From NCBI GenBank assembly GCA_003281415.1, contig QCCC01000004.1:1-64000 (forward strand): a stretch of 64,000 bases of DNA, in the 5' to 3' direction. The notes beneath the pieces are model-generated. The model searched no databases. It was given only the letters and a program-made list of their open reading frames with translations, and was not told the DNA's origin. Each line of letters begins with the position of its first letter. Positions within the stretch are counted from its first letter, which is position 1. This DNA is from Prochlorococcus sp. AG-347-K15. Lineage in GTDB: Bacteria; Cyanobacteriota; Cyanobacteriia; PCC-6307; Cyanobiaceae. This document shows, in pieces, positions 13,353 through 41,532 of this stretch. A program made the position numbers and the translations under genes.

Positions 13353-13452
13353 CCAAAAAAAAAGATCCCTCAGAGAGAGATCTTTTTAAAATTGATTTAA
13401 ATCAAGTGTTTCCTTGTTTCCACTGAAATAAATCAATTCCTCCTACACACAT
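13353..13452 (-). ncRNA. Yfr2-family-like small RNA
   Basis: Minus strand GUGUGUAGGAGGAAUUGAUUUA...GUGGAAACAAGGAAACAC...UAAAUCAAUU: 10-bp stem (13390-13399/13429-13438), two GGAAACA motifs in the loop, terminator hairpin 13359-13387 plus T-run. Confidence 0.72.
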
Positions 13453-13522
13453 ACTTAATATCACACCTAAATTCAAAATATGTAATGCTTAATAGACCTC
13501 TATCTTAACTGTCACATCATAA

Positions 13523-13631
13523 AAAATACAAAAAGTACTCAAACATCGAGGTCGAGTACTTTTAAAGTTATCAGAAAAAAGTGTGTGAGGAGTTTCTGAT
13601 GTTTTTAATCTACTCCGTAGGTAATTTAAAA
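13523..13631 (-). ncRNA. candidate small RNA carrying the Yfr1 motif ACUCCUCACAC in a hairpin loop
   Basis: Minus strand: TATACT -10 (13638-13643), hairpin ATCAGAAA-CTCCTCACACAC..-TTTCTGAT (13570-13600), 10-bp hairpin AAAAGTACTC/GAGTACTTTT (13531-13563) followed by T-rich tract. Confidence 0.6.
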
Positions 13632-13684
13632 GGCTACAGTATAAATTACTAAATATTTAAATCTTTCAGAAAAATTGGTCGTTG

Positions 13685-13852
13685 ATGAAAAAAAATAATC
13701 AAAAACATAAAAAATTCATGAAAAGCATTTACAAAAAAATCATTTTTATTATTTCGGCAATTGCTCTTTTTTCAGTGATAGTGAGTGTTGTCAAATATTC
13801 GCTTACTTATATTGAAAATAATCCCGAAAAATACTTACCTACACAAAAGTAA
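13685..13852 (+). CDS. 55-aa single-TM protein
   Basis: MKKNNQKHKKFMKSIYKKIIFIISAIALFSVIVSVVKYSLTYIENNPEKYLPTQK; manual translation. Confidence 0.45.
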   Translation: MKKNNQKHKKFMKSIYKKIIFIISAIALFSVIVSVVKYSLTYIENNPEKYLPTQK

Positions 13853-41471: not shown

Positions 41472-41532
41472 AAAAAAAGCCCGATTAATCGGGCGATTTA
41501 GTGTGTGAGGAGTATGGGGTTTCCCCCATCAT
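41472..41532 (-). ncRNA. yfr1: Yfr1 small RNA
   Basis: Minus strand AUGGGGGAAACCCCAU hairpin, unpaired ACUCCUCACACAC, terminator hairpin GCCCGAUUAAUCGGGC+U7; lies in the guaB-type/trxA spacer. Confidence 0.93.

Follow-up and report, generated by a model that had tools for sequence, protein, structure and literature searches.

Steglich et al. (2008) reported that in Prochlorococcus MED4 the small RNAs Yfr10, Yfr12 and Yfr18 directly adjoin Yfr2, Yfr4 and Yfr5 (PMC2518516). The sequence 5′-ACUCCUCACAC-3′ is common to Yfr1, Yfr10 and Yfr18, and is found with two changes in Yfr12; pairing of this motif with GUGUGUAGGAG around a bulged C was proposed in the same study. The authors also detected a joint 270-nt precursor of the Yfr10–Yfr2 pair; for Yfr18 the bands were of 29 and 76 nt, and no precursor was seen (PMC2518516). 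Lambrecht et al. (2019) found Yfr1 and Yfr10 in a pull-down with MED4 Yfr2, and Yfr5 enriched in a pull-down with Yfr10. A GFP reporter repressed by Yfr1 was restored by Yfr2, Yfr2 inhibited the interaction of ppa mRNA with Yfr1 and Yfr10, and Yfr1 and Yfr10 protected Yfr2 from RNase E. The same paper noted that in high-light strains the homologues of Yfr2 have homologues of Yfr10 upstream (PMC6778093).

The locus at 13353–13643 on the minus strand of the window, the whole 64-kb stretch of DNA analysed here, is very probably the Yfr18–Yfr5 tandem sRNA pair of high-light Prochlorococcus, a capture-type mode of action included. Its sequence can be aligned to the MED4 pair on the minus strand at about 972.1–972.3 kb, and the gene order is common to both genomes: OsmC-like protein, DUF1499 protein, sRNA pair, ABC-3 permease and Fur-family regulator. 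On the basis of alignment and gene order the upstream RNA was assigned to MED4 Yfr18, and not to Yfr10 or Yfr12. The MED4 sequence used was search-set genome G015, which was treated as MED4 since it has a Yfr10 match at 346661–346738, exactly the published MED4 coordinates. Three sRNAs in the window matched Rfam models above the gathering threshold (Cyano-1, Yfr10 and Yfr1), all on the minus strand. The remainder of the genome assembly (75.5% complete) contained no further Yfr2-family or Yfr10-family copies.

A sequence-only reading of the window had described two neighbouring RNAs, one of Yfr2 type that includes an anti-Yfr1 segment and one that displays the Yfr1 motif, and the Rfam matches bear this out. 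The interest of the locus as a new pair did not survive comparison with the MED4 catalogue, since the second RNA already bears a Yfr name (Yfr18, of the Rfam Yfr10 family). The pair and its motif/anti-motif interpretation are already published: the idea of a sponge or cross-regulator, which the reading had put forward, dates from 2008 (PMC2518516) and was put to the test on the MED4 paralogues in 2019 (PMC6778093). The interplay of Yfr1 and Yfr2 that it mentioned is likewise on record for MED4, where Yfr2 pulls down Yfr1 and undoes Yfr1 repression (PMC6778093). The only additions made here are the exact identity of the locus and a wider count of where the tandem arrangement occurs. A published regulatory RNA network of an abundant phototroph is thereby confirmed from raw sequence alone, with two modest new points: the tandem order is present in five genera beyond that of MED4, and the motif/anti-motif duplex is never perfect.

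The Yfr18 orthologue (13523–13632, minus strand) is a Yfr1-like motif RNA, identified by sequence and by synteny with MED4 Yfr18. It matched Rfam family RF02362 (Yfr10) at 13600–13519 on the minus strand with 61.1 bits, against a gathering threshold of 43, and gave no match to the Yfr1 model. As expected of the Yfr10 family, its Yfr1 motif sits within the loop of a hairpin, and it lies upstream of a Yfr2 homologue. TATACT at 13638–13643, its probable −10 element, lies in a strongly conserved block of a 53-orthologue alignment and reads AATACC in the MED4 group. The motif CUCCUCACACAC (CTCCTCACACAC at 13581–13592) is near-invariant in the orthologues and is displayed by an 8-bp hairpin (13600–13593/13577–13570) whose inner stem is invariant in all 53. 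The sequence-only reading had placed the motif in this loop correctly; the loop length is here corrected to 15 nt, CUCCUCACACACUUU. A 10-bp terminator-like hairpin (13563–13554/13540–13531) is paired in 97.9% of orthologue cells.

The published MED4 Yfr18 coordinates, 972284–972388, begin 67 nt ahead of the conserved hairpin, stop before its terminator and do not agree with the conserved −10. Fragments of 29 and 76 nt would suit a 105-nt RNA beginning after that element, and the published coordinate table may be offset (region 972241–972388; L062, 6241–6389). Upstream of Yfr18 lies a divergent 56-aa open reading frame (13682–13852, plus strand) with a hydrophobic stretch, of which only the C-terminal 19 residues match MED4.

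The Yfr5 orthologue (13353–13452, minus strand) belongs to the Yfr2 family and matched Rfam Cyano-1 (RF01701) at 13452–13385 with 80.4 bits, against a gathering threshold of 41. It has the traits of that family: an anti-motif segment at the 5′ end, a stem-loop with repeated GGAAACA, and a terminator. The anti-motif, GTGTGTAGGAG in DNA and GUGUGUAGGAG in RNA (13440–13450), complements the Yfr1/Yfr18 motif, is unpaired in the predicted fold and reads GUGUGUAGGAGG when extended to 13439 on the minus strand. The stem-loop with two GGAAACA copies (13390–13438) is closed by a 10-bp stem, 13438–13429/13399–13390, and is followed by a terminator hairpin of 13 pairs (13387–13359), four of which show compensatory changes. 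All of these stems, GGAAACA motifs and terminators, and the TATACT, stand on the minus strand where the sequence-only reading had put them. In the spacer, TGTGATATT (13457–13465, minus strand) is a possible extended −10 of Yfr5, conserved in position in the alignment. A candidate regulator site, TGTGACAGTTAA / TGTGACARTTAA (13505–13516, minus strand), contains a TGTGACA that is invariant in the 53 orthologues and lies some 55 nt ahead of the 5′ end of Yfr5. In MED4 the same element stands about 93 nt ahead of the GGAAACA core in Yfr2, Yfr4 and Yfr5, as it does in the window Yfr5, and is absent upstream of the solo Yfr3; it may be the published CGRE1 site.

The third RNA of the network, Yfr1, is encoded at 41476–41529 on the minus strand, between genes that we take from their translations to be guaB and trxA. 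It had been placed at 41.5 kb on the strength of its motif, and is the only RF01116 match in the window (58.0 bits; gathering threshold 38). Two copies of the 11-mer ACTCCTCACAC lie in the 64 kb, at 13583–13593 and 41503–41513, and none appeared in 100 shuffles.

Pairing within the locus is retained in its relatives. Among the 53 orthologues the predicted structure is kept in 97.5% of pair cells, compared with approximately 36–56% when the partners are slid, and covariation strongly supports the Yfr5 stem, in which eight of ten pairs have changed on both sides. The anti-motif is identical in all 53, and the motif nearly so. The Yfr18 hairpin hardly varies in this set. In a wider set of 150 tandem copies, drawn from several genera, the letters of the hairpin around the motif differ and the pairing is retained, with stem variants such as TCAGAAA/TTTCTGA, ACAGAAC/GTTCTGT and GGACA/TGTCC. 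Stems of at least 7 bp are present in 98% of copies where the anti-motif has its high-light form (1.6% once the flanks are shuffled) and in 70% where it has the other form (0.6% once the flanks are shuffled). The recurrence of the motif relative to shuffles, the Rfam margins and the pairing kept in orthologues show that these elements are not due to chance. The motif RNAs of L021, L024, L032, L059 and L064 have altered motifs (CGCCTCACACA, ATCCTCACACA, CTCTTCACACA, CTCCTCATACA and CTCCTCATATA); this suggests that some copies, chiefly of the Yfr10–Yfr2 and Yfr12–Yfr4 classes, have decayed or acquired new targets.

To count tandem copies, 300 genomes of the family were searched for the motif followed, after 130–160 nt, by AGGAG and GGAAACA. 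This pattern was found in 56 genomes, and a reversed control gave no matches. It was present in all 24 sampled genomes of the MED4 genus and in five other genera (21 of 23 in g56, 8 of 14 in g11, and one each in g28, g31 and g41); the pattern is strict, and its absence elsewhere is therefore weak evidence. In a few matches the form is shorter, CTCCTCACAT or CTCCTCACAA; a match in G417 (C3) lacks the appearance of an sRNA pair. Judged from these sequence matches, the range of the tandem appears to exceed the high-light strains named in the 2019 paper (PMC6778093). With other spacings to the anti-motif, 81 genomes gave one match at 100–130 nt, which resembles a true pair, and one at 160–190 nt, which does not. 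Within the MED4 genus, where many genomes are incomplete, Yfr10-family matches were obtained in 124 of 151 genomes and Yfr2-family matches in 133 of 151. Tandem copies outside this genus or in uncultured lineages include L119, L120, L121, L152, L163, L209, L088 and L097, many of which carry the bulge-free anti-motif form TGTGAGGAG; L209 (HNLC1) has two pattern matches. The locus had no match in the phage records searched, nor the tandem pattern in the viral contigs searched. The Yfr2 core string did turn up in two viral contigs, which were rejected: there it lies inside a protein-coding gene with phage-like neighbouring reading frames, and gives no Rfam match.

The motif and anti-motif can pair around one unpaired C, as the sequence-only reading had it, the cleanest form being 5+6 bp instead of the 6+5 bp given there. 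Predicted interaction energies were −16.1 kcal/mol for Yfr1:Yfr5 and −10.7 kcal/mol for Yfr18:Yfr5, the latter being weaker because Yfr18 must open its own hairpin; it was matched by 6 of 200 shuffles. Immediately before AGGAG the anti-motif has T, A or C in 124 copies (mean predicted duplex energy −16.3 kcal/mol) and G in 24 (−15.1 kcal/mol), whereas an ideal 12-bp complement would reach −24.4 kcal/mol. None of 148 tandem copies forms a perfect 12-bp duplex, and the longest uninterrupted match is 9 bp; this regularity is one of predicted energies, not of measured affinity. We regard it as a tentative possibility, on the doubtful side, that the cassette predates the high-light clade and extends beyond it, and that its duplex is held below full strength so that capture of Yfr1-like RNAs would be reversible.

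No compensatory change was seen in the motif/anti-motif helix among the 53 orthologues, although seven of eight motif changes still pair with the anti-motif, as G·U; conservation of the two segments could therefore stem from other partners, such as mRNAs. Motifs and anti-motifs swapped between lineages gave the same predicted energy; co-adaptation specific to each pair is thus not in evidence, and this candidate was rejected. The equal pairing across lineages, the several copies per genome, and the existence of MED4 Yfr3 and other copies without a motif RNA would also fit an evolutionary leftover, a duplicated two-gene cassette in which each RNA is conserved for its own targets and adjacency has no functional importance; the retention of the tandem throughout the sampled MED4 genus and in five others makes this rather unlikely.

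Separate Yfr18 and Yfr5 transcripts are favoured by the terminator and the promoter-like element in the spacer, and the two RNAs presumably have separate promoters. A single precursor of about 280 nt, with motif and anti-motif paired in cis and both inactive until cut by a ribonuclease, so that the tandem serves processing or dosage and not regulation in trans, is suggested by the MED4 Yfr10–Yfr2 precursor and by a 278-nt fold of the window that opens the Yfr18 hairpin and pairs most motif bases with the anti-motif (probability 0.97–1.0), but is improbable given that terminator-like hairpin and conserved promoter-like element, the published Yfr18 bands without a precursor, and the differences in intergenic spacing among lineages.

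Most likely, then, Yfr5 captures Yfr1 and Yfr18 through its anti-motif, which would free their mRNA targets. The motif, anti-motif and folds are present in the sequence; by analogy with the Yfr10/Yfr2 paralogues, we infer that the window pair behaves as they do. Yfr18 would present CUCCUCACACAC in its hairpin loop and pair with mRNAs, acting like Yfr1 and Yfr10. The unpaired 5′ segment of Yfr5 would capture this motif and withdraw Yfr18 from its targets, and would withdraw Yfr1 more tightly. Binding may in turn shield the Yfr2-family RNA from RNase E. The closeness of the two genes probably matters.

In GlmY/GlmZ and the enterobacterial sRNA sponges, one RNA modulates another, as here, and the sequences are unrelated. 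Within the network, Yfr1 and Yfr18 have ACUCCUCACACAC in common; the motif of Yfr1 lies between two hairpins, whereas that of Yfr18 is in a loop, and Yfr1 is a separate gene between the presumed guaB and trxA. MED4 Yfr10–Yfr2 (346661–346893), the pair used for the published interaction work, has the same architecture as the locus described here, but a longer spacing from motif to core (approximately 177 nt, compared with 160 nt in Yfr18–Yfr5), and its anti-motif is GUGUGAAGGAG in many relatives. MED4 Yfr18–Yfr5 (complement of approximately 972.1–972.4 kb) agrees with the window pair in order, orientation, motif, anti-motif, folds and neighbours, and differs from it solely by sequence changes in the stems, spacer and flanks.
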